Positions 7,451 through 43,343 of a DNA stretch of 64,000 bases are shown here, piece after piece. Every line of letters begins with the position of its first letter. The stretch's first letter is position 1. Both the position numbers and the translations under genes were made by a program. A model generated the notes under the pieces. It was not told where the DNA came from. It made no database searches and worked only from the letters and a program-made list of their open reading frames with translations. The stretch is from Streptomyces ossamyceticus (GTDB lineage: Bacteria; Actinomycetota; Actinomycetes; Streptomycetales; Streptomycetaceae), in NCBI RefSeq assembly GCF_001418475.1, contig NZ_LIQX01000003.1:1-64000 (forward strand), given 5' to 3'.

Positions 7451-10400
7451 TCAGTCCACGCTCACCGCCCGCCACAGCTGGCTGTCGGCGTTCGCGTCCG
7501 TCGTCTGGACGAGCTGCGTGCCCGCCGTCGAGTTGGACACCGAGAGCAGCTTGCCGCTCTTCACGTTCTTGATCTTGTAGTAGCCGTTCCCGTCGGCGAT
7601 CGGTGTCCAGCGCTGGCTCGCGGCGTTGTTGTCGGGCTGCTGGATGATCGTCGCGCCGTCCGACGTGGACCCGCCGGTGACGTCCAGCAGCTGACCGCTG
7701 TTCTCGTTGACGATCTCGTAGCTGCCGTCACCGACCGAGACCCACTGCCAGCGCTGGTTCTGCGCCGCGGTGTCGTTCCACTGGATGACGTTCGCCCCGG
7801 CGGTGGTCGATCCGCCGGAGACGTCGATCACCTTGCCGCTGCTCTTGTTGAGGACCTTGTAGAACGTGCTCTGGCCGGGGAAGGCGATGAAGGCGAACGC
7901 GTCCAGCGCGCAGACCGTGTTGGACGAGGCCGTGTTCTTCGTGCCGGTGCACACGACCTTGATCGTGTGGGGACCCGCGGCGAGATCCGTCTTCTCGAAC
8001 AGCACCACCTGCTTCGTCACCGTCGAGGCGTACGCGTCGATGCCCGACTGCACCAGGGCGCCGTCGAGGTAGACGTCGACCTTGCCCATGTTCGGCTGCT
8101 TCATGCTGAGGTACCGCACGCCCGAGCCGGTGAACGCGTACTGGACGGAGTCGCCCGCCCTGCTGGTGAACTTCTCGGACCCGTTCATGTCCTTCGTGTC
8201 GTTCCAGTTCGACCACGTGCCGGAGTAGGTCACGCCGGCCGCCTTGTCGTCGACGTAGGCCCATGACTGCCGTACGAGGGACTTCGACGCGGGGGACGCG
8301 TTCCCCTGGGCGTCCACGACGTAGAGGCGGTACTGACCGGCCGTCTGCGGGACGGCGATGCTCGTCGCGGTTCCGGCTGCCTTCGTCATCGTGGGCCCGA
8401 CGGCGAACGTCGTCGTACCGGAGGGCGCCAGCCAGAGCGTGCTGGTCGCGTCACCGACGCCGCGGACGGGGATGGACGACACGCCCTTGCCGGTGAACGT
8501 GCTCGCGGGCAGGGCGTAGTCCTGCAGACCCACGGTGCTCCGGGGGACGAGGTCCTTGTAGGCGTCCTGCAGGCCGGCGTTCACCGCGATGCTGTACGCC
8601 TGCGACGGCCACACGTTGTCCGGGTACGCGCGCGCATCCTGGATGGTGCTGTTCGGCACGTTCTTGTTGGACATCTTGTTGACGGTGGCGTAGGTGTTGA
8701 TGATGGTCAGGTCGTGCTGCCGGCCCCAGGTGCCGGAGTTGATGGTGTAGGCCAGGCCCGGGTCGACGTCGAGCACGTTGTCGTGCTCGTTGAGGTAGGC
8801 GGAGCCCTCGTCGGGGTGCCCTCCGTACTTGTGGCCGGCCGGAACGCCCTGGATGTAGTTGTTGCTGATCTCGGTTCCCGGCTGGGCTCCCAGGGTGTAG
8901 ATCGGAGCGGAGTCGCCGAGCACCTGCATGTTGTCTATGAGCTGGTTGTGGCTGATGGTGTTGTTCTTCGCCGTGGTGGTCGGGTTCCCGGGCTGGATCG
9001 AGTTCGTCGAACCGTCGAAGTTCCACCAACCCCAGCCGAGGGTGATGCCCGCCCACGGGGACTTCTCGATCCGGTTGTGCTCCACGGACAGGGAGTCCAC
9101 GAAGTACGCCGACACGGGGCTGGACCCCTGGAACAACACCGCGCTGTCGTACAGGTAGTTGTTCGTGACCGAGATGTTCTTGCAGACCCCCTCGACGTTC
9201 ACCGGGTACTTCTCGTTGTTGGTCGAGGTGTAGTCCCCGATGTACACGTGCTGGGGGTGCCCCACGGTGATGGCGGAGCCGGCTATGTCATTGGTGACGT
9301 TGCCGGTCAGCTCCGAGTCGGTCACGTCGTTGACCATGTTGATCCCGTCGGCGCCGGTGTGCTGCACCGTGTTGCGCCGCAGGGCGATGCCGTCCGCGTT
9401 CTCGATCTGGATGATGCCCGGCGGCAGGTCGACGTTGCGGTACGTGTACGCGTGGAAGTTCTTCCTCGCGTACACGGTGGAACCGGAGTTGCCCTGCTGG
9501 CCCTGCCGGAAGACCGAGCCCGCCACATTGGTCAGGCCCCAGTCGGAGTGTTCGACGGTGAGCCCGGAGAACGTGATGTTCCGCGCGTGGTCGGTCCTCG
9601 ACGTGCCCGCGATCCTGAGGAGGGTGGACACGTTGTTCGGCGCGAAGACCTTCGCCGACGTCATGTCCTCGGAGCCCGACTTGTAGTAGTAGACGGTGTG
9701 CTTCGTCTTGTCGAAGTAGAACTCGCCCGGCTGGTCGAGGAATTCGTACGCGTTCATGAAGGTGTGGGTGCCGGCGGCGTCGAATCTGCCGTTCGGCGGT
9801 CCCTGGGCGATGGCCGCGCCCGGCTGCTGGAACAGCGCCACGCGGTTGGCGCCGTCCGAGCTCGTGGTGATCTGGCGGACGCCCACGATGGCCGACGTCC
9901 ACGTCGTCTGCGTTCTGATCTCCACGTCGTCCTGGTTGGCGGCGACGGCGGGCAGATCGGCGAGGCTGTACTTGGCGCCGTCGCACTGCGAACCCGACTC
10001 CCAGGCCCAGGGAGCCTGGCCGGCCGTGATGGTGTAGGTGCCGTGGCAGCCGGCCGAGGGAATCGTCTTCGAGGCCATCTGGGCGCGCTTGCCGTCGACG
10101 TAGAGCGCGCGGAGCTTGTCGTCGCGGTCCAGCGGGGCCTTCCAGATGTTCCCGCTGTGCTGCGTCCAGCCGGTCACCGGGACACCACCGTTCAGCACCG
10201 GCTTCTCGTCCTGGTAGGCGGCGTACACGACACGGTGGCCGTTCGTCCCGGAGTCGGCCGACGTGAAGTCGACGGTGCTGCTGACGGGGTAGTTGCCGCC
10301 GCGCAGATAGACGTTGATGTCGCCGGTCATGTCGTCGTTGACGGTGCGTACGACGTCCCGTGCGTGCCGCAGGGTCTTGAACGGCGCGGAGATCGTCCCG

Positions 10401-10555
10401 GCGTTGGTGTCGTTGCCGTCGGGGGCGACGTAGTACGTGGCCTGGGTCGCGGCCGAGGCCGGGGGCGACAGCGTGAGGGAGGTCAGCGGCGTCGCGACGA
10501 GGGCCGTCGCCAGCACGGCCGACAGCCTGCGGACGGTGGAGGGGAAGGGCTTCAT
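7451..10555 (-). CDS. Secreted right-handed beta-helix glycosidase (GH141-like) with C-terminal ricin-type lectin
   Basis: This 1034-residue exoenzyme has a Sec signal with cleavage near residue 35 (PPASA-AT). The mature start YYVAPDGNDTNAGTISAPF, then VYLRGGNYPVSSTVDF and LRALYVDGKRAQMASK, resemble GH141-type beta-helix enzymes. Parallel beta-helix repeats follow to about residue 640 (NxI/NxY turns). A beta-sandwich carbohydrate-binding-like module (about 760-890, KVDVYLDGALVQSG) and a ricin trefoil with three QxW repeats (893-1034) complete it. The ATG at 10555 has GGGAGGGG upstream. It lies at the 3' end of the deoxy-sugar cluster, so it may release L-fucose-like sugars outside the cell; the exact bond is not established. 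Confidence 0.75.
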   Translation of the reverse strand: MKPFPSTVRRLSAVLATALVATPLTSLTLSPPASAATQATYYVAPDGNDTNAGTISAPFKTLRHARDVVRTVNDDMTGDINVYLRGGNYPVSSTVDFTSADSGTNGHRVVYAAYQDEKPVLNGGVPVTGWTQHSGNIWKAPLDRDDKLRALYVDGKRAQMASKTIPSAGCHGTYTITAGQAPWAWESGSQCDGAKYSLADLPAVAANQDDVEIRTQTTWTSAIVGVRQITTSSDGANRVALFQQPGAAIAQGPPNGRFDAAGTHTFMNAYEFLDQPGEFYFDKTKHTVYYYKSGSEDMTSAKVFAPNNVSTLLRIAGTSRTDHARNITFSGLTVEHSDWGLTNVAGSVFRQGQQGNSGSTVYARKNFHAYTYRNVDLPPGIIQIENADGIALRRNTVQHTGADGINMVNDVTDSELTGNVTNDIAGSAITVGHPQHVYIGDYTSTNNEKYPVNVEGVCKNISVTNNYLYDSAVLFQGSSPVSAYFVDSLSVEHNRIEKSPWAGITLGWGWWNFDGSTNSIQPGNPTTTAKNNTISHNQLIDNMQVLGDSAPIYTLGAQPGTEISNNYIQGVPAGHKYGGHPDEGSAYLNEHDNVLDVDPGLAYTINSGTWGRQHDLTIINTYATVNKMSNKNVPNSTIQDARAYPDNVWPSQAYSIAVNAGLQDAYKDLVPRSTVGLQDYALPASTFTGKGVSSIPVRGVGDATSTLWLAPSGTTTFAVGPTMTKAAGTATSIAVPQTAGQYRLYVVDAQGNASPASKSLVRQSWAYVDDKAAGVTYSGTWSNWNDTKDMNGSEKFTSRAGDSVQYAFTGSGVRYLSMKQPNMGKVDVYLDGALVQSGIDAYASTVTKQVVLFEKTDLAAGPHTIKVVCTGTKNTASSNTVCALDAFAFIAFPGQSTFYKVLNKSSGKVIDVSGGSTTAGANVIQWNDTAAQNQRWQWVSVGDGSYEIVNENSGQLLDVTGGSTSDGATIIQQPDNNAASQRWTPIADGNGYYKIKNVKSGKLLSVSNSTAGTQLVQTTDANADSQLWRAVSVD

Positions 10556-10766
10556 GGTCTGCCCCTCCCGCTGGAACGGTCGGTCGGGAAAGCGGTCATG
10601 CGGCGGCTCCGGGGGTGCTGTTCGGTGCGGGTTCGCGGACGGGTGACTTCTCAGGGGCGGAAGCGGGGGTTCGGGCTTTCCTGGCGACGGACGCGGTGCG
10701 CCCCGGGTAATCGGTCGGGTCGGCCGGGGGCGACGGGACGTGGGGCGCGCTTGCCCCTCAGCGGTG

Positions 10767-11765
10767 TCAGGGGACACCGCCGGCGGTGGTGGGGACGTCC
10801 TGCCTGATCAACCCGCGTTCGCGGAGGTCGTGCCAGAGCGCCCGGGGTACGGCGCTCCGCTGGAGTGCCACGTTCTGCGTCACCTGCGCGCGGTCGCGCA
10901 TGCCCAGCGTGACGTTGACGGTGCTGGGATGGGTGGTCGGGAAGGCGATGGCGGCGGCGGGAAGACTGGTGCCGTGCTCCTCGCAGACCTCCGCGATCGC
11001 CCGTGCGCGGGCGACCAGCTCCGGGGGAGCGTCCTGGTAGTCGTACTTCATGCCGTCGGCGGGCCACGGACGCGAGAGCAGCCCGGAGTTGAAGACACCG
11101 GCCGCGACGACGCTCTTGCCCGCTTCCCGCGCGGCGGGCAGCACGTCGTCGAGCGCCGACTGGTCGAGGAGGGTGTAGCGCCCGGCGAGCATGACCACGT
11201 CGGCGGCGGTCTCCCGCAGGAAACGGGCGAGCATCGCCGACTGGTTCATACCGGCGCCGATGGCCCCGACGACCCCTTGGTCACGCAGCTCCGCCAGAGC
11301 GGGCAGGGCCTCGTCGGCGGCCTGCCGCCAGTGGTCGTCGGGGTCGTGCACGTACACGATGTCGAGCCGGTCGAGGCCGGTGCGGTTCAGGGAGTCCTCC
11401 AGGGAGCGGAGCACCCCGTCGCGGCTGAAGTCCCACTGGCGGCGCAGGTCGTCCCGTACGACGAAACCGTCACTGTCGACGCCCCGGGGACGCTCGTTGG
11501 GGACGAGGAGGCGGCCCACCTTGGAGGAGACGACGTACTCGTCCCGAGGGCGCTGCCGCAGGGCCGCCCCGAGACGCTGTTCGGAGAGCCCGAGGCCGTA
11601 GTGCGGCGCGGTGTCGAAGTACCGGATGCCCGCGTCCCAGGCCGCGTCGACGGCGGCCGACGCGTCGGCCGCCGAGGTGGTGCGGTACAGGTTGCCGATC
11701 ACGGACGCGCCGAACCCGAGGGCGGTGAGTTCGACGGACGTGCGGGCGACGCTCCGACGTCGCAT
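10767..11765 (-). CDS. Aldo/keto reductase, L-fucose (D-threo-aldose) 1-dehydrogenase-like
   Basis: This 332-residue cytosolic NAD(P)-dependent oxidoreductase carries the AKR tetrad: Asp in YFDTAPHYG, Tyr in the same motif, Lys in VSSKVGR and His in YVHDPDD. The N-terminus (LTALGFGASVIGNLYR) and GLSEQRLGAAL match the L-fucose/D-threo-aldose dehydrogenase branch, which oxidises the sugar to its lactone. An in-frame ATG at 11873 would add 36 unalike residues. The ATG at 11765 has GAGGAGGG at ideal spacing and is preferred. With the lactonase-like amidohydrolase and mutarotase upstream it suggests a non-phosphorylative pathway. Confidence 0.85.
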   Translation of the reverse strand: MRRRSVARTSVELTALGFGASVIGNLYRTTSAADASAAVDAAWDAGIRYFDTAPHYGLGLSEQRLGAALRQRPRDEYVVSSKVGRLLVPNERPRGVDSDGFVVRDDLRRQWDFSRDGVLRSLEDSLNRTGLDRLDIVYVHDPDDHWRQAADEALPALAELRDQGVVGAIGAGMNQSAMLARFLRETAADVVMLAGRYTLLDQSALDDVLPAAREAGKSVVAAGVFNSGLLSRPWPADGMKYDYQDAPPELVARARAIAEVCEEHGTSLPAAAIAFPTTHPSTVNVTLGMRDRAQVTQNVALQRSAVPRALWHDLRERGLIRQDVPTTAGGVP

Positions 11766-11911
11766 GACGCCCTCCTCGCGCGTGTCGAGCGGCGCGGTGG
11801 GGCCCGGCTCCACGCTCGGTGCGGGAGCCGTGTCCAAGGTACGGGCAGCCGTGTAACGGACGGCGAGGGTCATCGTGTTCTCCGGAGTCCTCTCGGCACG
11901 AGCGCCGTGCG

Positions 11912-12808
11912 TCAGCCGCGGGCGGGGAGGCGGTAGAAGGCGGTCGCGGTGCCGGCGAGGAGCGCGTGGATCTCGCTCTCCGCGCAGTCGGTGAGCAGTT
12001 CGTCCACCGTGGCGGCCCAGCGGTTCCAGCCGCCCGCGAGGTTGGCGACCGGCCAGTCGGAGCCGAACATCAGCCGGTCCGGGCCGAAGGACGTGAGCAG
12101 CACGTCCCAGACCGGGCGGATGTCGGCGGTGGTCCAGCTGTCGTGGTCGGCCTCGGTGATCAGTCCCGACAGCTTGCAGACCACGTGCTCGTGCGCGGCC
12201 AGCCGTCGCACCTGCTCCCGCCACTTGGCGAGGTCGCGCCCGGCGATGTCCGGCTTGCCCGCGTGGTTCAGCACCTGGGGCAGGTCGGGGAAGCGTTCGG
12301 CCAGCCGGATCGCCTGGTCGAACTGGTGGCTGCGGACCAGGACGTCGTAGGAGAGCCCGCGGTCCCTCGCCGCGGCCAACCCTCTTTCGACATCGGGGCG
12401 TTGCAGCCAGGCCGGTTCCGTCTCGCCCTGGACGAGGTGGCGCAGGGAACGCAGATACGTGCCGCCGGCTCCGGCGAGCAGCCGGTCGAGCGTCTCGCCG
12501 ATCGCCGGCGACGTGAGGTCCGCCCAGCCGACCACCGCCTCGATCAGCGGTTCCCGCTCCGCGAGGGCGAGCAGGTCCTCCGTCTCGGGCACCTCCGGCA
12601 TGCACTGCACGGCCACCGTGCCGTGCAGGTGACGGCCCGCGACGGGGCGGGTCGCGGTGGAGCGCAGGTCGTCGGGGGTGAAGGTGCGGCGGATCGATGT
12701 CAGGTCGGGGTCGTCGAGCCAGGGCTGCGGACGCCGGTCGAGGTCCCACAGATGGTGGTGCGCGTCGATGAGAACGGGGGCGGGCGTGGAGGCGGGGGCG
12801 GAGGTCAT
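11912..12808 (-). CDS. Amidohydrolase-2 family lactonase (L-fuconolactonase/rhamnonolactonase-like)
   Basis: This 298-residue TIM-barrel hydrolase starts with IDAHHHLWDLDRRPQPWLDD, the metal-binding HxH motif of amidohydrolase-2 sugar lactonases. Further active-site motifs are LNHAGKPDIAG (His), VCKLSGL (Lys) and LMFGSDWPV (metal Asp). These enzymes open 1,4- or 1,5-aldonolactones such as L-fuconolactone made by an aldose dehydrogenase. It is encoded directly between the mutarotase (37 bp upstream) and the aldo/keto reductase, which fits that order of reactions. The exact lactone is inferred from context. Confidence 0.83.
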   Translation of the reverse strand: MTSAPASTPAPVLIDAHHHLWDLDRRPQPWLDDPDLTSIRRTFTPDDLRSTATRPVAGRHLHGTVAVQCMPEVPETEDLLALAEREPLIEAVVGWADLTSPAIGETLDRLLAGAGGTYLRSLRHLVQGETEPAWLQRPDVERGLAAARDRGLSYDVLVRSHQFDQAIRLAERFPDLPQVLNHAGKPDIAGRDLAKWREQVRRLAAHEHVVCKLSGLITEADHDSWTTADIRPVWDVLLTSFGPDRLMFGSDWPVANLAGGWNRWAATVDELLTDCAESEIHALLAGTATAFYRLPARG

Positions 12809-12845
12809 GGCGGTTCCAAGTCGGGTCGGTCCGGCGCGGTCCGTG

Positions 12846-13193
12846 TCAGGCGGTGGCGTCCTCGCCTGGCGGGTCGAGGTGCCAGATCTCGGTCAGTTCC
12901 GTCCACTGGCGGGAGTCGCCCCGGTCGGGCCAGGGCTCCTGGCAGGGATCGGTGAGTCTCCACCACTCCCGGGTCTCGGCGTCGGCTTCCAGGGCGGCCA
13001 TGTCGGCCTCGAAGTCGTCGCCGTGGTACTCGAGGAAGGCGAACAGCACGTCACCGTGGAGGAAGATGCTGTAGTTGCGGATGTTCGCCCGGTGCAGGGC
13101 GGCCTCCACGCCGGGCCAGACGGCCGCGTGGAGCCGCAGGTACTCCTCGCGGTGCTCGGGGCGGAGCCTGATGGTCTGCGCGATGCGCCTCAT
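12846..13193 (-). CDS. L-rhamnose mutarotase family protein (L-fucose mutarotase-like)
   Basis: This 115-residue ferredoxin-like protein begins MRRIAQTIRLRPEHREEYLRLH and has the family motifs HAAVWPGVEAAL, IRNYSIFLHGDVLFAFLEY and W-rich EWWRLTDPCQEPWP. RhaM-type enzymes interconvert the anomers of 6-deoxyhexoses. Its start ATG overlaps the stop of the upstream 671-residue gene by four bases (13190-13193), so the two are probably translationally coupled. A fucose rather than rhamnose substrate is suggested only by the neighbouring dehydrogenase. Confidence 0.88.
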   Translation of the reverse strand: MRRIAQTIRLRPEHREEYLRLHAAVWPGVEAALHRANIRNYSIFLHGDVLFAFLEYHGDDFEADMAALEADAETREWWRLTDPCQEPWPDRGDSRQWTELTEIWHLDPPGEDATA

Positions 13194-15205
13194 GCGCGTT
13201 CTCCTTCCGTGCCCTGGGAGGGCGGGCCCGCCGGGGTGTCGAACGGGGTGCGGTAACTGGGGGTGCGGGAGCGCAGCCGGAGGCGCAGGGTGAGCCGGAT
13301 ACGGGTGGACGCGGGCAGCCGTACGGTCAGGAAGGGGTCGGCGCAGTCCTGCTCCGCCTCGGTGACGACCGGCTCGGTGTGACCGTAGTCGTACATGTCG
13401 CCGATCCAGCCGTCGTCCCGGCAGGTGGTGTACCGGACGGCCGTGATGGTGTGCTCGGCGAAGGCGCCGGCCTGGACGATCACCGTGCGCTCGGCTTCGG
13501 GGGAGAGGTTCACCAGTTCGACGGTGGTCGCCTCGGGGTCGATGGAGGTGACCAGCGCGGCGACCTCCGGTGGCAGACCGGCGCGGCGGGCCTCGGCGTC
13601 GTGGTAGCGCAGCCGGGCCTGCTGCAGGCCGCCGTTGTAGAGCACCTGGGGGCCGCCCCACGTCAGCTGGACGAGGGCTTCGGTGACCACCGGGTTGCAC
13701 AGCTGCCACACATGGATGTCGGCCTCGGCCACGTCCAGGTCGCGGTAGCGGTCCATCCGGCGCAGCCGGTGGTGGATCTGGGCCTGCGCGGCGGCGAGGA
13801 TGCGCTCGGGGTAGCCGGGGTCGTCACCGGCGAGGAACGCGAACCATGCCTTCTCGTGCCCCGACTCCTCCTTGGCCCGGAACGGCCGCACGGTACGCCA
13901 GTCGATACCGTCGGCCTCGCGCAGCCGCTCCAGCCGGACGCGGTCGGCGTCGGAGGCCGTGTGGTGCCACAGGGCCACCGGCACGGGCGGGGTGAGCGGG
14001 TTGTAGTCGAACCAGCCCGAGTCGTTGTGCCGGAACGGAAGGTGCGGTGTCGGGGTGTGGATGTCGGGGCCCAGTTCGACCACCCACTTGGAGGGGAGGC
14101 TGGAGTCCGCCTCGGTGTGGGGCATCACCCTGGCGTGACCGATGAGGGTGTCGAGCGAGGTCGCGACCATGGAGAGATAGTCGTCGTCCCCGGTGACGGT
14201 GGCCGCCGCGAGCGCCGCCACACAGGCCGCGTGGCCCACGCTGTGCCAGCCGTGCGGCCAGGACCAGCCGTAGTGCCCGCCGTACCAGCGACCGTCCAGC
14301 AGACTGCCGACGGCACCGTCCGGGCCCGCGTTGTCGGGGATGAGACCTTCGTTGGCCCGTGTGCGCTCGCGCCACGCGTCCACGTACTCGACGATCCAGT
14401 CGCGGTAGCGGTCCTCGCCCGACAGGATCCACGCGTTGAGGACCAGCCCGGCCGCGGCCAGGTTGACCGCGGTGTCGCCGACACCCATCCGGTCCCGCAT
14501 CTGCGCGCCGAGCCGCGGATCCGCGGAGAGCGGGAACGGGCCGCCCTCCGCCTCCGGGATCCACTCCAGCGGAAAGCCGTACGTCTCCGCTTCCTTCAGC
14601 AGCCACGGGTACACGTCGCCGTCGAACAGGCCCGTGCGGTCGGGGTCGCTGCCGTTGTGCGGGCGGGTGATGACACGGTGCTCGGGGTCGTAGTTGCCCC
14701 TGGCGGGGTCGACGTACAACTCGGCGAAGCGCAGCGCCCGTTCCGACCAGCGGTCAGGGGCGGCCATGCACAGGAAGTAGAGCAGCAGCAGGCTCTCGCC
14801 CTGGTGGAACCAGTCGTAGCCGCGCTCGAACTCGTCGTGCAGCATGCCGAGTTCGGTGAGCTGCCGGGTCACGCCCTCCCAGTGCTTCTCGCCGGCGGCC
14901 AGCAGATCGTCCGCACCGCCGAGGAGATACAGCTGGGGCCAGTTGAAGAACACCTCGTAGAAGTCGTCCACACCGTCGCGGGTGGTCAGTGCCCCGGTGT
15001 AGTTCAGCCGTCCGTCCGGGCCGGTGAAGTCGCGGGCGAAGCGGCGCCAGGCGTGGTCGAGCAGGTCGAACAGCGCACGTTGTGACACGGCCCAGCCGGG
15101 CGGTTCGAGCACCGGCACGCCCGCCTCGATCTCGGGTGGCGGGGCGGGCTGCCCGGCGACCGGGGTGTCCCCACCCGAGGCGGGGCCGGAAGAGGTGAAG
15201 GGCAT
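13190..15205 (-). CDS. Uncharacterised 671-residue protein of the deoxy-sugar cluster, probable alpha/alpha-barrel
   Basis: I do not recognise a named family. There is no signal peptide, so it is probably cytosolic. It is rich in Trp, His and acidic residues, with helix-pair segments spaced through residues 40-480 (for example YEVFFNWPQLYLLGGADDLL and HYGWSWPHGWHSVGHAACVA), suggesting an alpha/alpha toroid like many carbohydrate-active enzymes. A beta-rich tail of ~120 residues (TTVELVNLSPEAERTVIV) could be a C-terminal sandwich. It lies between the permease genes and the mutarotase and overlaps the latter by four bases. An intracellular glycoside hydrolase or lyase acting on imported oligosaccharide is a reasonable guess. 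Confidence 0.75.
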   Translation of the reverse strand: MPFTSSGPASGGDTPVAGQPAPPPEIEAGVPVLEPPGWAVSQRALFDLLDHAWRRFARDFTGPDGRLNYTGALTTRDGVDDFYEVFFNWPQLYLLGGADDLLAAGEKHWEGVTRQLTELGMLHDEFERGYDWFHQGESLLLLYFLCMAAPDRWSERALRFAELYVDPARGNYDPEHRVITRPHNGSDPDRTGLFDGDVYPWLLKEAETYGFPLEWIPEAEGGPFPLSADPRLGAQMRDRMGVGDTAVNLAAAGLVLNAWILSGEDRYRDWIVEYVDAWRERTRANEGLIPDNAGPDGAVGSLLDGRWYGGHYGWSWPHGWHSVGHAACVAALAAATVTGDDDYLSMVATSLDTLIGHARVMPHTEADSSLPSKWVVELGPDIHTPTPHLPFRHNDSGWFDYNPLTPPVPVALWHHTASDADRVRLERLREADGIDWRTVRPFRAKEESGHEKAWFAFLAGDDPGYPERILAAAQAQIHHRLRRMDRYRDLDVAEADIHVWQLCNPVVTEALVQLTWGGPQVLYNGGLQQARLRYHDAEARRAGLPPEVAALVTSIDPEATTVELVNLSPEAERTVIVQAGAFAEHTITAVRYTTCRDDGWIGDMYDYGHTEPVVTEAEQDCADPFLTVRLPASTRIRLTLRLRLRSRTPSYRTPFDTPAGPPSQGTEGERA

Positions 15206-15305
15206 GGGACGGAGCTCCGTTCGGGGGTGGCGGGGTGCGCGCCGGGGACGACGGTCGGGCGGACGACGCCGGATCGGGCATCAGGGTCGGGGCGGAGGAC
15301 CGGGG

Positions 15306-16184
15306 CTACTCCTTGGTGGCGCCGGCGAGCATCCCGCTGACCAGGAAACGCTGGGCGAAGAGGAAGACGATCAGTACGGGTGTGATGGCCACGAGCGTCG
15401 CCAGGGCCAGCTGCGGCCGTTCGATCGCGAGGGTGCCGACGGCCGGATTGAAGGACGGCACATTGCTGAGCAGGGTCCCGACCCCCACCTGGATGGGCAT
15501 CTGGCCGCTCTCGGGCAGCATCACGTAGGGCAGGAAGTAGTTGGTCCAGTTGGCGACGAAGCTGAAGAACCCGACGAGCGCGATCACCGGTGTCGCCAGC
15601 GGCAGCGCGATGTGCCGGAAGACACCGAACTCCGAGCAGCCGTCCATCCGTGCCGCCGCCAGCAGGTCCTTCGGTACCGCGGTGGTGAAGTAGATGTACG
15701 TCAGATACACGCCGAACGGGTAGAACGAGTACGGCAGGATGATCGACCACATCGTGCCGATCAGCCGCACCGCGTTGATCTCCAGGAACAGCGGCACCAC
15801 CAGCGTGGCGGTCGGCATCAGCATCACGACCAGGGTCGAGACGAGCAGGGTGTGCCGGCCGCGGAACTCGGTCATGGCCATCGCGTAGCCCGCCGGGACG
15901 GCCACGCAGAGCGTGATGACCAGCGAGATCAGCGCGTACAGGGTCGAGTTGCCCAGCCACTGCAGGACGGCGTTGTCCTGGAACGCGGTGAGGGCGTCCC
16001 AGTTGGCCCTGAGGGTGTGCAAGGAGCCGAAGGAGAGCGGGCTGCCGTGGACGAGTTGCTGATCGGTCTTGGTCGCCGCGAGGACGAGCCACAGCACCGG
16101 CAGCACGAAGAACACCAGGAAGACGAGCAGGACGGAGCCGGTCAGCAGCCGGGGCACGAGGCGGCGCGAAGAACTAGTCGGCAT
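15306..16184 (-). CDS. Sugar ABC transporter permease (MalG type)
   Basis: This 292-residue inner-membrane protein has six predicted helices. The CUT1-permease cytoplasmic loop is clear: EFGVFRHIALPLATPVIA with AARMDGCSE before it (EAA motif). The ATG at 16184 starts MPTSSSRRLVPR and overlaps the end of the upstream permease by 11 bases; a GTG/ATG further upstream would only add unstructured residues. It partners the MalF-like gene and lipoprotein upstream to import a sugar. No ATPase is encoded in this operon, so a shared multi-sugar ATPase is expected to energise it. Confidence 0.9.
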   Translation of the reverse strand: MPTSSSRRLVPRLLTGSVLLVFLVFFVLPVLWLVLAATKTDQQLVHGSPLSFGSLHTLRANWDALTAFQDNAVLQWLGNSTLYALISLVITLCVAVPAGYAMAMTEFRGRHTLLVSTLVVMLMPTATLVVPLFLEINAVRLIGTMWSIILPYSFYPFGVYLTYIYFTTAVPKDLLAAARMDGCSEFGVFRHIALPLATPVIALVGFFSFVANWTNYFLPYVMLPESGQMPIQVGVGTLLSNVPSFNPAVGTLAIERPQLALATLVAITPVLIVFLFAQRFLVSGMLAGATKE

Positions 16185-17088
16185 CGAAGAACCCCGACCG
16201 TGCGACGAAGACGGCGGCGGCCGACACACTGACGACCAGGAGCTCCACCGAGACCGCGGCGGCGCCGTTGACGTTGTTCATCTGGAAGGCGAAGTCGTAC
16301 GTCAGCTGGTTCAGCGAGTAGTCGCGTCCGGCCACGCCCACACTGGCGAGGGACAGCAGCTGCGGCTCCACGAAGAGCTGCGCACCGCCCGCGAAGGCCA
16401 GGATCACCATGTACACGATCCACTTGCGGAGCATGGGGATCTGGATGTGCCAGGCGGTCTGCCAGGCGCCCGCGCCGTCGATGCGCGCGGCTTCCATGAC
16501 GTCGGTGGGGATGTTGTTGAGCGCGCCGTAGATGACGACGATCCAGCCGCCCGCGCCGGTCCAGAACGCGATGACCGTGAACAGCAGGGGCAGGTTGCCG
16601 GGCGCGATCACCTCGCCGAAGGTGTCGAACCCCAGCATGCCCAGCAGCGAGCTGACGGGGCTCACCGTCGGGTCGAGCATGAACAGCCACACCAGCACAC
16701 TCGCGGCGCCGGCGAGCGCTCCGGGGATGTAGAAGAGGAAGCGCAGGGACTTGCTGAGGGTGCCGGAGGCGAGGCGGTGCAGCAGCAGCGCCAGGCTCAC
16801 CACGAACACCACGAGCGAGACCAGCCAGAACAGCAGGTACAGCGCGACATGGCCGACGGCGTCCAGGAAACGGAAGTCCTGTGCGGTGGTGACGAAGTTG
16901 CTGAAGCCGGTGAAGGTGCCCCCGGCGTCGGTGAACGCGAAGTAGACGGCGTACCCGGTCGGCAGGATGCCGAACGCGATCAGGAGCAGCACGTAGGCCG
17001 CGACGAAGGCGATGCCGGCCCGGCTCTGCCGGTCGGTGCCGCTGGGGCGCCGACCGGCGGAGCCGGACGGGGAGTGGCTGAGGGTCAC
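16174..17088 (-). CDS. Sugar ABC transporter permease (MalF type)
   Basis: This 304-residue protein has six or more membrane helices and the conserved EAA loop (VMEAARIDGAGAWQTAWHIQ), followed by IPMLRKWIVYMVI. The GTG start at 17088 overlaps the TGA of the binding-protein gene (GTGA), which fixes it; longer frames upstream lie inside that gene. It is the MalF-like half of a CUT1 importer with the MalG-like gene downstream. The N-terminal tail is short and polar. Confidence 0.9.
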   Translation of the reverse strand: MTLSHSPSGSAGRRPSGTDRQSRAGIAFVAAYVLLLIAFGILPTGYAVYFAFTDAGGTFTGFSNFVTTAQDFRFLDAVGHVALYLLFWLVSLVVFVVSLALLLHRLASGTLSKSLRFLFYIPGALAGAASVLVWLFMLDPTVSPVSSLLGMLGFDTFGEVIAPGNLPLLFTVIAFWTGAGGWIVVIYGALNNIPTDVMEAARIDGAGAWQTAWHIQIPMLRKWIVYMVILAFAGGAQLFVEPQLLSLASVGVAGRDYSLNQLTYDFAFQMNNVNGAAAVSVELLVVSVSAAAVFVARSGFFDAD

Positions 17089-18446
17089 TGCTCGACCTTG
17101 TACCCGTTGGACTTGGCGTGCTGGACGATGGAGTCCTGCCAGGCCGGCAGCATCGAGACGATGGACTTGCCCTGGGTCAGGCCCGGCTTGACCGTGGACG
17201 CCCAGATCGCCTCCTGGCTGAACTGGCCCGAGCCCCACTCCGGCCACACCTGGGAGGAGGCGGCCGAGAGGGCGCTGAGGTCGCTGGCGAAGTAGCCGGA
17301 GGCGTCCTGACCCTTCAGCCATGCCTCGGCCGCCGGCGCGTAGGCCGGGAAGCCGGGCGCCTTCTCCCCCTGGTAGGCGTTGTCGGTGGTGACCCACGTC
17401 AGGAAGTCGGTGGCCGCCTTGAGGTGGGTGGAGTGCTGCGACAGCAGCCAGGTGCCGCCGCCGACGTTGCCCGTGGACGGCGCGCCGTCTCCCTGCCACT
17501 GCGGTATGGGCGCCACCGCGATCTGCTGGGCGGGGACCTTGAGGGTGTCCTTGAAGACCGCGCCGCCGAACCAGGCCGGGCCCGGCATGAGCAGGACCTT
17601 GTCGGCCTGGTTCTTGCCGAAGTCGGTGCTGAACACGCCGCTGATGGACATGGACTTGTTCTTGATCAGCACGTCCAGGAGCTTGGCCATCCTGGTGCAG
17701 GCCTCGCTGGTGGTGTTCACGGACACGGACTTGGGGCCGGTGATGTGGTTGGCGCCGCACTTGCTCGCCCACAGGTAGATCTCGGGGGTGAAGGAGTCCC
17801 CCGCGTCACCGACGAGATAGCCCGGATGCTCCTTGGCCACCTTCGTGCCGAGCTTCTGGTACTCCTCCCATGTCGTCGGCACCGTGTAGCCGAACTTCTT
17901 CATCAGCGGGGCGTTGTACCAGAGCACGGCCTGGGAGAGGTCGTTGCGCAGACAGTAGACGGTGCCGTCGACCGTGCAGACGTCGTTGGCGCCCTTGGCG
18001 AACTTCCCCAGCGTCGACTCGGGGACCAGGCCCTTGTTGAGCGGAGCGGCGAAGCCCGCGTCGACCGCCCAGGAGGTCTCGTTGTTCTGGGAGCTGAACA
18101 CGACGTCGGGCCAGCCCTTGCCGGTGCGGTTGAACAACTGGACCTTCGTCTGGAGGTAGTTGGACCCGTTGGCGTCGCCGTCGTAGCTGACGATGTCCAG
18201 CTTCACCTCCGGGTGCAGCTTCTGGTACAGCTTCGCGGCGTCCATCCGGGTCGCGTCCACCCAGACGGTCAACGCCCCGTCCTTCTGCGGCACCTGGGCG
18301 AAGCCGTCCTTGGTGGTCGTACCGGCCGTGCCGCCGCCACAGGCCGTCACGGTCAGCAGCACCGTGACCGCACACCCGGCCAGCGATGCCGCCCGCTTCC
18401 TGCCGAGAGCTCTCTTGGGGCCGGGCGAGGACTGGTTGACGGTCAT
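17085..18446 (-). CDS. Sugar ABC transporter solute-binding lipoprotein
   Basis: This 453-residue protein has a basic N-terminus, a hydrophobic core and a lipobox ending LLTVTACGG, so it should be lipid-anchored outside the membrane. The body (GALTVWVDATRMDAAKLYQ, GKGWPDVVFSSQN, WLLSQHSTHLKAATDFLTWV) is that of CUT1 family-1 sugar binding proteins. It is the first gene of the leftward transporter/catabolic operon. The ATG at 18446 has GGAG at good spacing. The divergent FadR-type gene at 18789 is the likely regulator. Confidence 0.92.
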   Translation of the reverse strand: MTVNQSSPGPKRALGRKRAASLAGCAVTVLLTVTACGGGTAGTTTKDGFAQVPQKDGALTVWVDATRMDAAKLYQKLHPEVKLDIVSYDGDANGSNYLQTKVQLFNRTGKGWPDVVFSSQNNETSWAVDAGFAAPLNKGLVPESTLGKFAKGANDVCTVDGTVYCLRNDLSQAVLWYNAPLMKKFGYTVPTTWEEYQKLGTKVAKEHPGYLVGDAGDSFTPEIYLWASKCGANHITGPKSVSVNTTSEACTRMAKLLDVLIKNKSMSISGVFSTDFGKNQADKVLLMPGPAWFGGAVFKDTLKVPAQQIAVAPIPQWQGDGAPSTGNVGGGTWLLSQHSTHLKAATDFLTWVTTDNAYQGEKAPGFPAYAPAAEAWLKGQDASGYFASDLSALSAASSQVWPEWGSGQFSQEAIWASTVKPGLTQGKSIVSMLPAWQDSIVQHAKSNGYKVEQ

Positions 18447-18788: not shown

Positions 18789-19586
18789 ATGGACGACATG
18801 CCGGCGATCGAAGCGGCCCTGCCGGTCCAGGCCCCTCCCGCCGCGCCTGCGGGCGTGGCCGGCCCGGACGAGCGGCGGGACTACCGTCCCGGGTACGAGA
18901 TCGTGGCGGAGCGGATCCTCGCGTACATCGCCGAGGAGCGACTGGCGCCGGGTGACCGGCTGCCCACGGAGATCGACCTCGCCCGGACGCTGGACACCAG
19001 CAGGGCGGTGGTGCGGGAGGCCGTCAAGATCCTTTCGGCGCTGGGCCGGGTGAGGGCGCACAAGGGGCGGGGCCTGTTCGTCGCGGACGACGAGGGCATG
19101 CTCGTCACCAGCCGGTGGGGAGGCTTCTTCCGCCCCGTCGACATCGACCACGTACTGATGCTGTTCGAGTTCCGCAGGGTCCAGGAGATGGCCGCCAGCA
19201 GTCTGGCGGCCACCCGTGCCACCCCTTCGGAGCTGCGTACCATCGAAGTCGCCATGGAGCAGTGCCGGCACGGGTTCGTCCACGGCCAGGTCGAGGTGTT
19301 CAACCAGGCGGACGAGGACTTCCACACGGCCGTGTCGGCGGCCTCGCACAACACGTTCCTCGTCAGCGCCGTGCGGGACGCGCGACGCCTGCAGCGCCAG
19401 TCCAGTGCCATCGGTATCCATGACTCGCTCGGGGAGAACACCGAGGCGGCCGTCGAGGAGCACGAGGCGATCTACCGGGCCATCCGTGACGGTCGCCCCG
19501 AGGAAGCGGCGCAGGCCACCGCGGCGCACCTCGACCGAACCCTGGAGGACTACCGGCGCGAGATCCAGCGCCGCCTGTTCGGCTGA
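18789..19586 (+). CDS. FadR-subfamily GntR transcriptional regulator
   Basis: This 265-residue regulator has an N-terminal winged helix (residues ~40-100; GDRLPTEIDLARTLDTSRAVVREAVKIL), a wing KGRGLFVAD, and a C-terminal helical FCD domain. The domain has metal/ligand residues expected for the family (EDFHTAVSAASHN, EEHEAIYRAIRDG). The ATG at 18789 follows GGGAGG at proper spacing. It is divergent from the sugar operon and upstream of the GH43 gene, so it probably senses a sugar or sugar acid and controls the operon across the shared gap. Confidence 0.87.
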   Translation: MDDMPAIEAALPVQAPPAAPAGVAGPDERRDYRPGYEIVAERILAYIAEERLAPGDRLPTEIDLARTLDTSRAVVREAVKILSALGRVRAHKGRGLFVADDEGMLVTSRWGGFFRPVDIDHVLMLFEFRRVQEMAASSLAATRATPSELRTIEVAMEQCRHGFVHGQVEVFNQADEDFHTAVSAASHNTFLVSAVRDARRLQRQSSAIGIHDSLGENTEAAVEEHEAIYRAIRDGRPEEAAQATAAHLDRTLEDYRREIQRRLFG

Positions 19587-19996: not shown

Positions 19997-22048
19997 GTGG
20001 ACCTCACCAGAAGACAACTCGGCCGGCTCGCCGCGGTCGGTACCGGCGCCCTCCTCCTTCCGGGCCTGCTCCCGTCGAGCGTGGCGTCGGCGGCCACTCC
20101 TCCGGCCGGCACCTGGGGTGACCAGGGCGACGGCACGTACGTCAACCCGATCGTCCCGGCCGATCTCAGCGACTGGGACTGCATCCGGGTCGGCGACGAC
20201 TACTACGGCATCACCAGTACGTTCGGATACTCGCCCGGCATGGCCGTCCTGCACTCGAAGGACCTGGTCAACTGGCGCCCGATCGGCGGCTCGGTCGACG
20301 ACGTCACCCGCATCGGACCGGAGCTGAACTGGGACCGGATGAACCGCTACGGCCGCGGCGTGTGGGCCGGGGCCATCCGCTTCCACGCGGGGCGGTACTG
20401 GGTGTACTTCAACACGCCCGACGAGGGCTTCTTCATGACGTCGGCCCCGTCGCCGACCGGCCCCTGGGAGCCGTTGCACTCGATGTGGCGGACCTCCGGC
20501 TGGAACGACGTGTGCCCGTTCTGGGACGACGACGGCCAGGGCTACCTGGTCACCACGCACTACTCGGACAACTACAAGATCCACCTGTACAAGCTGTCCG
20601 AGGACGGCAAGTCGCTGGTCGGTCCGGCCCCGGTGATCCACCAGTCGTCGCGCAGCGAGGCCAGCAAGCTGTACAAGATCGACGGTGTCTACTACCACCT
20701 GTTCAGCGAGGTGAAGCCCGAGGGCCGGGTCCTCATGATGAACCGCGGCTCCAGCATCCTCGGCCCCTTCGAGACCCGCCAGCTGCTGCACGTCAACACC
20801 TCGGTCGACCGCGAGCCCAACCAGGGCGGGCTGGTGCAGACCCCGGGCGGCGACTGGTACTTCGTGACCCACCACGGCCACGGCGGATGGGAGGGGCGCG
20901 TGCTGTCCCTGCTGCCGGTGACCTGGGTCGACGGCTGGCCGATCATCGGCACGGTGGGCTCGGACGGCATCGGCACCATGGCGTGGACGGGCCAGTTGCC
21001 CGACACCGGCACCCCCGGCCTCCCCGTCGACGCGCTGCCCGCCGTCGTCACCAGCGACTCGTTCACCGACACCCGCCTCAAGCCGCAGTGGGAGTGGTAC
21101 TACCAACCCCGGGCGGACTACTGGTCGTTGACCGAACGTCCTGGTTATCTGCGGCTGAAGGCGTTCGCACCGCTGGCCGGGGACAACCTGATGAAGGTGG
21201 GCAACACCCTCACCCAGCGAGTGCTGCGCACCGCGGGCGGCGCCACGGTGACCGTCCGCCTCGAACTGGCCGGCCTCGCCGACGGCCAGCACGCCGGGCT
21301 GTGCCACTACGCCGCCACCTACGCCGGACTGGGCGTGCGACGCTCCGGGACCACCACCACGATCGAGCACAACGTCGGCGGGACCCTGACCAGCGGCGCG
21401 ACCCTCACACAGAACGCCGTGTGGCTGCGCACCACATGGGACGTGAACGGGGTCAGCCGCTTCTCCTACAGCCTCGACGGAAGCACGTTCACCCAGGTCG
21501 GTGGCACCTACCAGCTCACCTGGGGCGGCTACCGCGGCGACCGGATCGGCCTCTACACCTACAACCCGGGCGGCACCGGCCACGTCGACTTCGACTCGGT
21601 GCAGTACACCATCGCCCCCGCGCGGACGTACACATGCGTCAGCGTGCGCAGCGGCAAGGTGGCCGACGTCGCCGGCGGGTCCGGCGCGGACGGCGCCGCC
21701 GTGATCCAGTGGACCGACAACGGCGCGACGAACCAGCAGTGGGCCTTCCAGTCCACGGCCGACGGCTACCACACGATCACCTGCGTCCGCAGCGGCAAGG
21801 TGCTCGACGTGGCCGGATCCTCCACGGCGGACGGCGCACGGGTCGTACAGGCGACCCCCGACGGCAGGGCCAGCCAGCAGTGGCGGTTGCGCCCCCTGTC
21901 CGGCGGTGTCTTCCAGGTGGTCAACCGCAACAGCGGCAAGGTGCTCGACGTCACCTCCGGCAGTACGGCCGACGGCGCCGCGCTGATCCAGTACGCCGAC
22001 CGGGGCGGCACCAACCAGCAGTGGACGTTCCGCCGGGTCACCGGCTAG
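19997..22048 (+). CDS. Secreted GH43 glycosidase (beta-xylosidase/arabinofuranosidase-like) with ricin-type lectin
   Basis: This 683-residue exoenzyme has a twin-arginine-like signal (TRRQLGRLAAVGTG, cleavage near SVASA-AT). The five-blade GH43 domain (~45-340) has the catalytic Asp in NPIVPADLSDWD and a likely acid Glu in SEASKLYK. A concanavalin-like GH43 C-terminal sandwich follows (~350-545; DSFTDTRLKPQWEWYYQPR), then a ricin trefoil with three QQW repeats. The GTG start at 19997 follows AAGGA. It probably trims xylose/arabinose side chains or oligomers outside the cell. A strong terminator follows. Confidence 0.88.
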   Translation: MDLTRRQLGRLAAVGTGALLLPGLLPSSVASAATPPAGTWGDQGDGTYVNPIVPADLSDWDCIRVGDDYYGITSTFGYSPGMAVLHSKDLVNWRPIGGSVDDVTRIGPELNWDRMNRYGRGVWAGAIRFHAGRYWVYFNTPDEGFFMTSAPSPTGPWEPLHSMWRTSGWNDVCPFWDDDGQGYLVTTHYSDNYKIHLYKLSEDGKSLVGPAPVIHQSSRSEASKLYKIDGVYYHLFSEVKPEGRVLMMNRGSSILGPFETRQLLHVNTSVDREPNQGGLVQTPGGDWYFVTHHGHGGWEGRVLSLLPVTWVDGWPIIGTVGSDGIGTMAWTGQLPDTGTPGLPVDALPAVVTSDSFTDTRLKPQWEWYYQPRADYWSLTERPGYLRLKAFAPLAGDNLMKVGNTLTQRVLRTAGGATVTVRLELAGLADGQHAGLCHYAATYAGLGVRRSGTTTTIEHNVGGTLTSGATLTQNAVWLRTTWDVNGVSRFSYSLDGSTFTQVGGTYQLTWGGYRGDRIGLYTYNPGGTGHVDFDSVQYTIAPARTYTCVSVRSGKVADVAGGSGADGAAVIQWTDNGATNQQWAFQSTADGYHTITCVRSGKVLDVAGSSTADGARVVQATPDGRASQQWRLRPLSGGVFQVVNRNSGKVLDVTSGSTADGAALIQYADRGGTNQQWTFRRVTG

Positions 22049-23424: not shown

Positions 23425-24900
23425 GTGGGAATCCGCCGACCTGCCGTATCGACCGCCGTGGCCGCCGCCCTGATCGGGTCGTTCGGCGTGCCGCTCGTCG
23501 CGGGCACCGCGTCCGCGAAGGACGGCGTCGCGACCGTGCGCGAGGACTTCGACGGCGACGGCTACCAGGACGTCGCCGTCGCCGCCCCGGGCGCGAGCGT
23601 CGGAGGCCACGCCCGCGCCGGTTACGTCGCGGTCAGCTACGGCTCCCCGCAGGGCCTCGACCCCAAGCGCACCAAGGTCTTCACCCAGGACACCACCCAC
23701 GTGCCCGGCGCCTCCGGCGACAACCACGTCTTCGGCTACGCGATGGTCTCCCGCGACCTGGACGGCGACGGCCTGACCGACCTGGCCGTGGTCGCCCGCG
23801 ACTACCGGCCGGAGGACAACGTCAACGGGTCGGTGACCGTCCTGTGGGGCCGGAAGACCGGCCTGTCCGGCGACGGCGCCGTCCGCGTCGGCGCACCGGC
23901 GAACGCCCAGGTCGGCGACGACCTCACCGCCGGCGACTTCGACGGCGACGGGTACACGGACCTGTTCATGGGCAACGGGGACGAGTACGACTTCCACGAC
24001 GTCCTCCACGGCCCCTTCGGCCGCAACGGCGCCCCCAGCCGCACCCAGCAGGTGCAGGTGTACAGCACCGACAACTCCATCAACTCCACCGCCACGGGCG
24101 ACTTCAACGGCGACGGCATCGAGGACCTCGCGACGTTCTACGTCTACGAGAACCACGCCGAGGGCGGCAAGCTGTGGCTCGGCTCCAAGGCCGGCCTGTC
24201 CACCGTCCCGCAGCGGTTGAACTCCGCGGCCGGCACCGCCGTCGCCGACTTCGACCGCGACGGCTACGCCGACCTCGCCACCCGCGTCTTCCTCAACGGC
24301 GACACCGAGGGCACCGAGGAGGACCCGGGCACCGTCAAGATCTACTACGGTTCCGCGTCCGGCCCCAGCCAGACCCGTACGCAGACGATCACCCAGAACA
24401 CGGCGGGCGTGCCCGGCGTGAGCGAGAAGGGCGACCAGTTCGGCGGACGGCTGCACGCGGGCGACGTCAACGGCGACGGATACCCCGACCTGGCCGTCGG
24501 TGTCCCCGGCGAGGCGATCGGCTCCAAGGCCAGGGCCGGCGCCGTGGTGCTGCTCAAGGGCGCCAAGGGCGGGCTCACCGGCAAGGGCGCGCAGGCGTTC
24601 CACCAGGACACGACGGGAGTTCCGGGTGCCGCGGAGTCCGGCGACGTGTTCGGCGCGGCACTGCGACTGCTCGACATGACGGGTGACGGCAAGGCGGACC
24701 TGGTCGCGGGCGCGCCGGGCGAGAACCTGGGCAGCGTCGTGAACGGCGGCGCGGTGTGGCTGCTGCGCGGCGCCGCCTCCGGCGTGACCGCCGCCAAGTC
24801 GGTCGCCCAGAACCCGACGGACATCGGGGCCCCGGCGCCGAGGGCGTTGTTCGGCGCGAACCTGAGCGGCGACAACGGGGCGGGAGTGGTCATCCCGTAG
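23425..24900 (+). CDS. Secreted FG-GAP (integrin-alpha-like) repeat protein
   Basis: This 491-residue protein has a Sec signal (cleavage near GTASA-KD) followed by seven FG-GAP/VCBS-like blades. Each has a calcium-loop motif: DFDGDGYQD, DLDGDGLTD, DFDGDGYTD, DFNGDGIED, DFDRDGYAD, DVNGDGYPD and DMTGDGKAD. This predicts a calcium-stabilised beta-propeller outside the cell. No enzyme domain is attached; such proteins are common in Streptomyces and mostly of unknown role (adhesion or matrix). The GTG start at 23425 follows GAGGAGG. Confidence 0.88.
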   Translation: MGIRRPAVSTAVAAALIGSFGVPLVAGTASAKDGVATVREDFDGDGYQDVAVAAPGASVGGHARAGYVAVSYGSPQGLDPKRTKVFTQDTTHVPGASGDNHVFGYAMVSRDLDGDGLTDLAVVARDYRPEDNVNGSVTVLWGRKTGLSGDGAVRVGAPANAQVGDDLTAGDFDGDGYTDLFMGNGDEYDFHDVLHGPFGRNGAPSRTQQVQVYSTDNSINSTATGDFNGDGIEDLATFYVYENHAEGGKLWLGSKAGLSTVPQRLNSAAGTAVADFDRDGYADLATRVFLNGDTEGTEEDPGTVKIYYGSASGPSQTRTQTITQNTAGVPGVSEKGDQFGGRLHAGDVNGDGYPDLAVGVPGEAIGSKARAGAVVLLKGAKGGLTGKGAQAFHQDTTGVPGAAESGDVFGAALRLLDMTGDGKADLVAGAPGENLGSVVNGGAVWLLRGAASGVTAAKSVAQNPTDIGAPAPRALFGANLSGDNGAGVVIP

Positions 24901-24944
24901 CCGAGGAGCGGGCATCGGGGGCACCCGCAGTACTGTGCCGTCGC

Positions 24945-29659: not shown

Positions 29660-30100
29660 ATGTATCCCAACGACGGTTTCCGTGAACTCGGTCGGCAGGA
29701 ATGTCTGGGTCTGCTGGCGAAGGTGTCGGTCGGCCGCATCGTGTACACCCGGCAGGCACTGCCCGCGGTCCTGCCGGTCAACTTCTGTCTGGACGACGAC
29801 GGTGCGGTGCTGCTGCGCACCTGTGCGGCTTCGGAACTGGCCCGTGCGGTCGACGGTTCGGTGGTCGCCTTCGAGGTGGACGAGGTCGACGCGGTCGCCA
29901 GGGCCGGCTGGAGCGTCGTCGTGACCGGGCGGGCGGCAGTGGTGAACGACCCGGCCGAGCACGAGCGCCTGGACAGGGTTGTTCCCGGCTCCTGGGCCCC
30001 TTCGCCCGTGGAGGTCTTCGTGCGTGTCGAGCCCGAGCTGGTGACCGGGCGGGAGCTGGTCGGCGGTCGCACGCTGTACGGGGTGCGGCTCTCCGCCTGA
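29660..30100 (+). CDS. PPOX-fold (pyridoxamine 5'-phosphate oxidase-like) protein
   Basis: This 146-residue split-barrel flavin/F420-type protein starts MYPNDGFRELGRQECLGLL and has the family signatures VGRIVYTRQALPAVLPVNF, AFEVDEVDAVARAGWSVVV and TGRAAVVNDPAEHERL. Small proteins of this kind (Rv3129-like) are typical of actinobacterial hypoxia regulons and may bind heme, FMN or F420. The ATG at 29660 is chosen over the GTG at 29642 because the same MYPNDG start recurs in the broken copy at 44856. A terminator follows directly. Confidence 0.83.
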   Translation: MYPNDGFRELGRQECLGLLAKVSVGRIVYTRQALPAVLPVNFCLDDDGAVLLRTCAASELARAVDGSVVAFEVDEVDAVARAGWSVVVTGRAAVVNDPAEHERLDRVVPGSWAPSPVEVFVRVEPELVTGRELVGGRTLYGVRLSA

Positions 30101-30117
30101 CCGGGGCCCTGCGCAGA

Positions 30118-42084: not shown

Positions 42085-42114
42085 CCACGTCCGTACGGCC
42101 CGAGGAAGCTCGCC

Positions 42115-43326: not shown

Positions 43327-43343
43327 CCGAACGTAGAACCACC

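Follow-up and report, generated by a model that had tools for sequence, protein, structure and literature searches.

What is the role of a protein of 671 residues that is encoded between the genes of a sugar importer and those of a sugar oxidation route, and whose sequence matches no Pfam or NCBIfam family? The question is posed by a minus-strand gene cluster of Streptomyces ossamyceticus, located in the 64,000-nucleotide stretch analysed here (the window; assembly GCF_001418475.1, contig NZ_LIQX01000003.1, positions 1 to 64,000). In transcription direction the cluster comprises the genes for a solute-binding protein (SBP), two permeases, the 671-residue protein (hereafter X671), a mutarotase, an amidohydrolase, an aldo-keto reductase (AKR) and a beta-helix enzyme. 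A first-pass annotation, made from the sequence alone, had named an importer, a mutarotase, an AKR, a lactonase and a beta-helix enzyme at this place on the minus strand, and Pfam searches recovered all of them there. The overlap that it had noted between X671 and the mutarotase gene measures 4 bp (stop TGA at 13190-13192, start ATG at 13191-13193). On balance, we favour the reading that the cluster is an operon for scavenging plant-cell-wall oligosaccharides, in which X671 would be a cytoplasmic toroid glycosidase freeing L-fucose and/or L-galactose. We infer the activity of X671, its substrate, the bond that it would break and the flow through the pathway from its family, predicted fold and neighbouring genes, as set out below.

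A conserved protein family without a Pfam or NCBIfam entry

X671 had been described as lacking any familiar signature, and this description holds: no Pfam or NCBIfam family was matched at E≤1, and a comparison with PDB sequences gave nothing meaningful (best E 0.28), to which a profile of 13 X671 sequences added nothing meaningful either (best E 0.32). When the 13 profile rows were compared with Pfam singly, weak matches to five families were obtained, each from one member (best E 0.03). No signal peptide is seen by eye. Its closest relatives are from Streptomyces, that of Streptomyces torulosus being full-length and 97% identical, and relatives from haloarchaea and alphaproteobacteria are 28-38% identical, so X671 is not a chance open reading frame (ORF).

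Two peptide patterns, run against GTDB contigs, gave at least 559 confirmed stretches; as one gene may match both patterns, the number of genes may fall below this count. Within the 100 near genomes X671 is carried by 16, the own genome included. Records of a plasmid collection gave 17 matches at 28-88% identity (3 actinobacterial, 12 haloarchaeal and 2 alphaproteobacterial), whereas none of the 47 pattern matches in viral contigs is an X671 relative, and the single match in PHROGs (E 0.52) was taken as chance. Both alphaproteobacterial relatives start with a Tat-like leader (by eye), and one of the 13 rows matched Pfam TAT_signal (E 0.054). No published description of the family was found among the best-ranked literature matches, which does not prove its absence from print, and no mention was found in the literature of six database identifiers of X671 relatives. 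X671 is thus part of a conserved and widespread family, common to soil actinobacteria, haloarchaea and alphaproteobacteria, that has no entry in the copies of Pfam and NCBIfam searched; it comprises at least 80 distinct loci and probably several hundred.

Predicted fold of X671

The whole of X671 was modelled with AlphaFold2 from a 64-row alignment (pLDDT 83.0, pTM 0.87). We are confident of the predicted architecture, a helical (alpha/alpha) toroid followed by a C-terminal beta domain, which belongs to a superfamily with many carbohydrate-active enzymes. By Foldseek and VIA-align the helical part resembles the toroids of glycoside hydrolase (GH) families GH76, GH47, GH127 and GH88 and of N-acylglucosamine-epimerase (AGE)-type enzymes. 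The best Foldseek match of the whole model is the GH127 structure 3wrg (E 1.2e-4), and VIA-align matches include 6shd of GH76 (Z 14.3, root-mean-square deviation 4.9, 288 aligned), 1x9d of GH47 (Z 14.2, 4.3, 354 aligned) and 3gt5 of the AGE family (Z 13.5, 5.0, 322 aligned). Chains of GH95 and GH139 are absent from the fold-search matches listed, which is no evidence against a relation. The fold searches also returned some lanthipeptide cyclases, which have the toroid too; apart from these, the model did not indicate a known non-carbohydrate family. The earlier suggestion of a candidate new carbohydrate-active family is therefore supported by both the unclassified sequence and the predicted toroid. 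Nine acidic residues of the barrel are invariant over 13 diverse sequences (D77, D80, D81, E84, D131, E137, D173, D244 and D421), and a conserved loop (311-317) is modelled with low confidence.

Genes next to X671 across related loci

Neighbourhood counts rest on the best 80 distinct loci of the stretches mentioned above, all actinobacterial by title; as the closest relatives of X671, they are not independent of each other. Upstream sequence of at least 4.5 kb is available for 74 loci; 72 of them have an SBP-permease-permease set upstream of X671 and on its strand, and 67 of the 74 have a homologue of the divergent regulator of the window. Downstream sequence of at least 5 kb is available for 71 loci, in which homologues were found of the lactonase family (43), the mutarotase (37), the AKR family (28), a zinc dehydrogenase (27), KduD (27), a 2-keto-3-deoxygluconate (KDG) kinase (13) and Eda (13). 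The gene directly after X671 could be assessed in 76 loci, and in 59 of them it is a homologue of the mutarotase (31), of the lactonase family (12, of which 11 at 31-35% identity), of the GH141-like beta-helix enzyme (10) or of the AKR family (6, at 30-33% identity); a GH54 enzyme, the zinc dehydrogenase and a FAH-type hydrolase follow in one locus each. Such tight coupling to mutarotase, lactonase or dehydrogenase genes would be expected of an enzyme producing a free aldose.

Carbohydrate-active enzymes are frequent in these neighbourhoods. GH141-like beta-helix genes occur in 43 of the 80 loci, as counted by tblastn with two query proteins that both match BT_1002, the other members being assigned by tblastn to these queries. 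By the same method GH54 was found in 18 loci, GH29 in 15 (the identity in three of these being only 23-25%), GH27 in 10, GH10 in 7 and GH95 in 2. In sampled genomes 4 of 18 X671 copies (G062, G065, G073 and G074) have a GH29 gene within 10 kb, for 0.17 expected from the density of GH29; this check omits a 110-residue X671 fragment of G069, as well as G049 and G059, which were outside the GH29 and GH54 scans, and the genomes that it covers are also related to each other, with many short contigs. Only 3 of the 80 loci gave a match to the FAH-type hydrolase. An MR_MLE-type dehydratase, sought by tblastn with four queries, was present in a single one (L085, at two places); outside the 80 it was matched in L027 and L030, leaving aside L028, the source of three of the queries.

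Two loci (L076 and L092) carry a very large secreted-looking protein (protein cluster 34) directly after the GH141-like gene, with ThuA-like and lectin domains recognised by eye, and in L028 a gene annotated as ThuA precedes the haloarchaeal X671 relative. In the alphaproteobacterial loci L027 and L029 the nearby genes of dihydrodipicolinate synthase (DHDPS) type are 72% identical to each other, and the pathway differs from the actinobacterial one.

The proposed downstream pathway and its probable sugar

The mutarotase clearly passes the cut-off of PF05336 (104.8 bits vs 23.4) and stays below that of TIGR02625, the equivalog model of L-rhamnose mutarotase (47.8 bits vs 99.6), which is in line with a sugar other than L-rhamnose, such as L-fucose; its nearest PDB entry, 7byu, is named L-fucose mutarotase. 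All five PDB matches of the AKR at E≤1e-30 are named L-galactose dehydrogenase, and the nearest PDB entry of the amidohydrolase, 4dlf, is named Amidohydrolase 2 and is, we presume, an L-fuconolactonase. Judged by their sequences, these enzymes point to an L-galacto-configured sugar, that is L-fucose and/or L-galactose.

No dehydratase gene was found in the cluster of the window, and the idea of a complete non-phosphorylative pathway at this place is not supported, as fuller clusters carry KDG-kinase-like and 2-keto-3-deoxy-6-phosphogluconate (KDPG)-aldolase-like genes. The missing step would be supplied from elsewhere in the same genome, by contig C443 (locus L121, 7000-19000), which carries an L-fuconate dehydratase (1yey, E 1.7e-203) and a gene of the RbsD/FucU family, along with a zinc dehydrogenase, KduD, Eda, a kinase and an Rbs-like transporter (by eye), adjoined by a GH29 gene. 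The lactonase and AKR homologues on C443 are 67% and 81% identical to their counterparts in the window, and X671 was not found on this contig. Used as a tblastn query, the dehydratase of C443 was again matched in 1 of the 80 loci. A second copy of part of the cluster, on C376 (L122), holds a lactonase, a zinc dehydrogenase, KduD, GH141 and GH43 and is truncated where the contig stops; its GH141 is 85% identical to that of the window, and its GH43 77% over the 213 residues matched. The zinc dehydrogenase of C376 matches in three pieces and may be broken or mis-sequenced.

Sequence comparison indicates that the cluster in the window is shortened, an internal deletion having removed four genes. 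Positions 11907-11799 match the start region of the zinc dehydrogenase of C443 (93.6% over 110 alignment columns) and positions 11794-11651 match the AKR start region of locus L037, and across 11651-11907 the dehydrogenase start is joined in frame to the AKR leader. In L037 these two match points are separated by about 3.3 kb that hold the dehydrogenase, KduD, Eda and the KDG kinase, and the same gene order is found in L041, L047 and L054. It is because the dehydrogenase start abuts the AKR start here, while four genes separate them in L037, that a four-gene deletion is proposed. The loss was probably tolerated because C443 and the second copy on C376 remain.

The gene set of the sister locus resembles the oxidative L-fucose pathway (1yey type) in part: homologues of its mutarotase, dehydrogenase and lactonase are present in the window and its dehydratase on C443, whereas the zinc dehydrogenase and the KduD-like, KDG-kinase-like and Eda-like genes of the sister locus set it apart. 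Such a leg could suit L-galactose, through 2-keto-3-deoxy-L-galactonate (L-KDGal), and the kinase and aldolase of the fuller clusters fit L-galactose better than they would a 6-deoxy sugar, because the latter offers no O-6. In the metabolism of agar sugars, L-KDGal is converted through a 5-keto intermediate to KDG. L-KDGal in bacteria is confirmed in passages of PMC11219438, which do not show the 5-keto/KDG step. Of the L-fucose-like sugar originally proposed for this cluster, the L-galacto configuration is thus supported, whereas the 6-deoxy character is less well suited to the kinase and aldolase leg.

The GH141 enzyme and its possible polymer

The beta-helix protein had been put forward as a secreted enzyme that could supply the sugar, and its sequence speaks for this. 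It matches the rhamnogalacturonan-II (RG-II) alpha-L-fucosidase of Bacteroides thetaiotaomicron, BT_1002 (BT1002; 5mqp), over residues 41-598 (E 1.4e-39, about 560 aligned residues), and contains the GH141_M insertion domain PF21231 (34 bits vs a cut-off of 27). Both catalytic aspartates of BT1002 (D523 and D564, as given in a passage of PMC10154630 and placed in the alignment by their spacing of 41) are kept, as Asp548 and Asp582. By sequence similarity and this pair the enzyme is a member of GH141 with putative fucosidase activity. It differs from BT1002 in its extra ricin-type lectin domains, and its specificity is not assignable from family membership, as GH141 is described in part of PMC12786026 as multifunctional, with fucosidase, xylanase and endo-fucanase members.

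In the Bacteroides system an L-fucose-containing disaccharide is a known product of GH141: according to passages of PMC10154630, BT1002 frees 2-O-methyl-xylosyl-alpha-1,3-fucose from RG-II, and according to passages of PMC7939467, B. thetaiotaomicron cleaves 21 of the 22 RG-II linkages, the exception being 2-O-methyl-D-xylosyl-alpha-1,3-L-fucose. In contrast, the 20 neighbour proteins scanned here show xylan-type enzymes (GH10, GH43, GH54, GH27-type and an esterase), and no RG-II-specific gene set was found among them. Judged by the xylan-type enzymes near some of the relatives, the polymer could be glucuronoarabinoxylan, whereas the likeness to BT1002 suits RG-II. Glucuronoarabinoxylan reportedly can carry L-galactose. 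That X671 would be the glycosidase that splits a disaccharide left by GH141, such as 2-O-methyl-D-xylosyl-alpha-1,3-L-fucose, is very unlikely in our estimate because of the absence of an RG-II-specific set among the 20 proteins. X671 would suit this step in so far as a GH141-like gene directly follows it in 10 of the 76 loci and such genes occur in 43 of the 80; if it did take this step, X671 would found a glycosidase family and break the one RG-II bond that resists the best-studied degrader.

Proposed role of X671 and alternatives

In the scheme that we favour, the secreted GH141 enzyme would cut the polymer outside the cell, and the SBP and the two permeases would import the resulting oligosaccharide, which X671 would hydrolyse in the cytoplasm to free the sugar. 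The coupled mutarotase would then equilibrate the anomers of the freed sugar, the AKR would oxidise it to a lactone and the amidohydrolase would open the lactone, with dehydration and cleavage being completed by sister-locus enzymes elsewhere in the genome. If X671 is a glycosidase, this would explain how the L-fucose or L-galactose that decorates plant walls is used by these bacteria intracellularly.

Several observations weigh against this scheme. No solved family stands out in the fold comparison: VIA-align Z scores run from 14.3 to 12.5 over the best 50 matches of the whole model and from 13.3 to 11.2 among the matches listed for the barrel alone, and with scores so closely spaced the function of X671 is not readable from the fold alone. 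X671 resembles the toroid glycosidases (GH76, GH47, GH127 and GH88) and the AGE epimerases in its predicted helical toroid, but it is matched by no Pfam model and shows no profile relation to GH127 (PF07944 unmatched, hhalign probability 0.9%) or GH95 (PF22124 unmatched, 0.4%). GH88 reached 32.5% over 42 columns, from a 4-row profile and with PF07470 unmatched; the power of this test is limited, as control comparisons gave 0.2% for GH127 vs GH95 and 68.7% for GH127 vs GH88. On the pathway side, the amidohydrolase stays below the cut-off of NF052480, the model of L-fucono-1,5-lactonase (200.9 vs 400 bits), and is a homologue rather than a called member, and the best NCBIfam model of the AKR is methylglyoxal reductase (80.4 bits, far under the cut-off of 550). 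The next gene after X671 is none of the tested genes in 14 of the 76 loci, one of which is L098, where a GH141-like gene is present and the X671 end could not be set, and the excess of GH54 near X671 is weak (2 of the 18 copies, G064 and G074, vs 0.27 expected). The haloarchaeal and alphaproteobacterial relatives adjoin other genes (pectate lyase, GH4, GH3, DHDPS-type), and because of these different neighbours the function of the family may not be uniform. Finally, a GH141 enzyme that itself releases the free monosaccharide would make an inner glycosidase needless.

The first alternative, which we regard as unlikely, casts X671 as a sugar epimerase or isomerase of the N-acetylglucosamine-2-epimerase type: the sugar would be imported in free form and converted by X671 before being oxidised. 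Cellobiose 2-epimerase, D-mannose isomerase and YihS are indeed listed among the glycosidases in the fold searches, one of the 13 rows weakly matches the C-terminal toroid of C5-epimerase in Pfam (E 0.072), and a mutarotase directly next to X671 suits a free-sugar pathway. The AGE-type mechanism, however, uses two histidines, and H134 is the only barrel histidine invariant over the 13 sequences, with more being kept by the actinobacterial rows on their own; moreover, C443 runs what appears to be the same pathway and X671 was not found there. When AGE family members were sought for the profile comparison, no more than 3 of 13 genomes gave matches, every one of them partial.

X671 could also be an unsaturated-uronyl hydrolase, or lyase-like, with the KduD, KDG kinase and KDPG aldolase homologues processing a uronate product, an option that we hold to be quite unlikely. 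The unsaturated glucuronyl hydrolase 2fv0 of GH88 is the best Foldseek match of the barrel alone (E 2.0e-4), the downstream counts of KduD (27 of 71) and of the KDG kinase and Eda (13 each) would be in keeping with it, and one haloarchaeal relative has a pectate lyase in its vicinity. The GH88 profile match, on the other hand, is weak and short, and the KduD-Eda-kinase set also occurs on C443, next to an L-fuconate dehydratase, a FucU-family gene and GH29 in a locus where X671 was not found, so this set is no sign that X671 produces a uronate. Were X671 a sugar-binding or regulatory component of the importer without a catalytic role, its near-obligate link to the SBP and permeases among close relatives would be accounted for, but this reading is highly improbable, as the many polar residues invariant across bacteria and archaea and the Tat-like leaders of the two alphaproteobacterial relatives suit an enzyme better.

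Layout of the cluster and minor observations

The features of the cluster are given in Table 1. The genome (9.3 Mb) is available as 1008 contigs, of which the one containing the window is labelled C232. Beside the cluster, on the plus strand, lie a divergent GntR regulator and a GH43 enzyme, two genes additional to those named by the first-pass annotation and retained together in five relatives (L031, L032, L033, L040 and L049). No gene for an ATPase of the importer was seen in the cluster; Streptomyces importers often share one ATPase.

Table 1. Positions, strand and supporting evidence of the features in and beside the X671 cluster
Feature	Position	Strand	Evidence
Solute-binding protein (SBP), importer	17085..18446	-	PF01547 E 6.3e-20
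Permease, ABC sugar importer	16174..17088	-	PF00528 E 1.9e-10
Permease, ABC sugar importer	15306..16229	-	PF00528 E 5.6e-15
X671, 671 aa, unclassified; predicted toroid domain and C-terminal beta domain	13190..15205	-	no Pfam/NCBIfam match; AlphaFold2 model
X671 predicted helical toroid domain, residues about 22-532	13610..15142	-	folded alone: pLDDT 80.5, pTM 0.86
RhaM-type sugar mutarotase	12846..13193	-	PF05336 E 3.3e-30; nearest PDB 7byu E 3.5e-32
L-fuconolactonase-like amidohydrolase	11912..12808	-	PF04909; NF052480 200.9 bits; 4dlf E 3.6e-40
Zinc alcohol dehydrogenase start remnant, about 25 codons and a short upstream stretch	11799..11907	-	match to C443
Aldo-keto reductase (AKR), L-galactose/L-fucose dehydrogenase type	10767..11765	-	PF00248; PDB L-galactose dehydrogenases
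Secreted-looking GH141 beta-helix enzyme, ricin-type lectin domains	7451..10555	-	BT_1002 (5mqp), PF21231
Asp548 codon, GH141 gene (= BT1002 Asp523)	8912..8914	-	alignment
Asp582 codon, GH141 gene (= BT1002 Asp564)	8810..8812	-	alignment
GntR/FCD regulator, divergent	18789..19586	+	PF07729, PF00392
GH43, secreted-looking, ricin-type lectin domains	19997..22048	+	PF04616 E 7.8e-49, PF17851

Elsewhere in the window, two long ATG-started ORFs (24345-25577 and 29701-30630) have no Pfam match and may not be genes. At 40579-44713, genes of an amino-acid permease, an arginine deiminase and the amino-acid kinase family adjoin, resembling an arginine deiminase pathway set.

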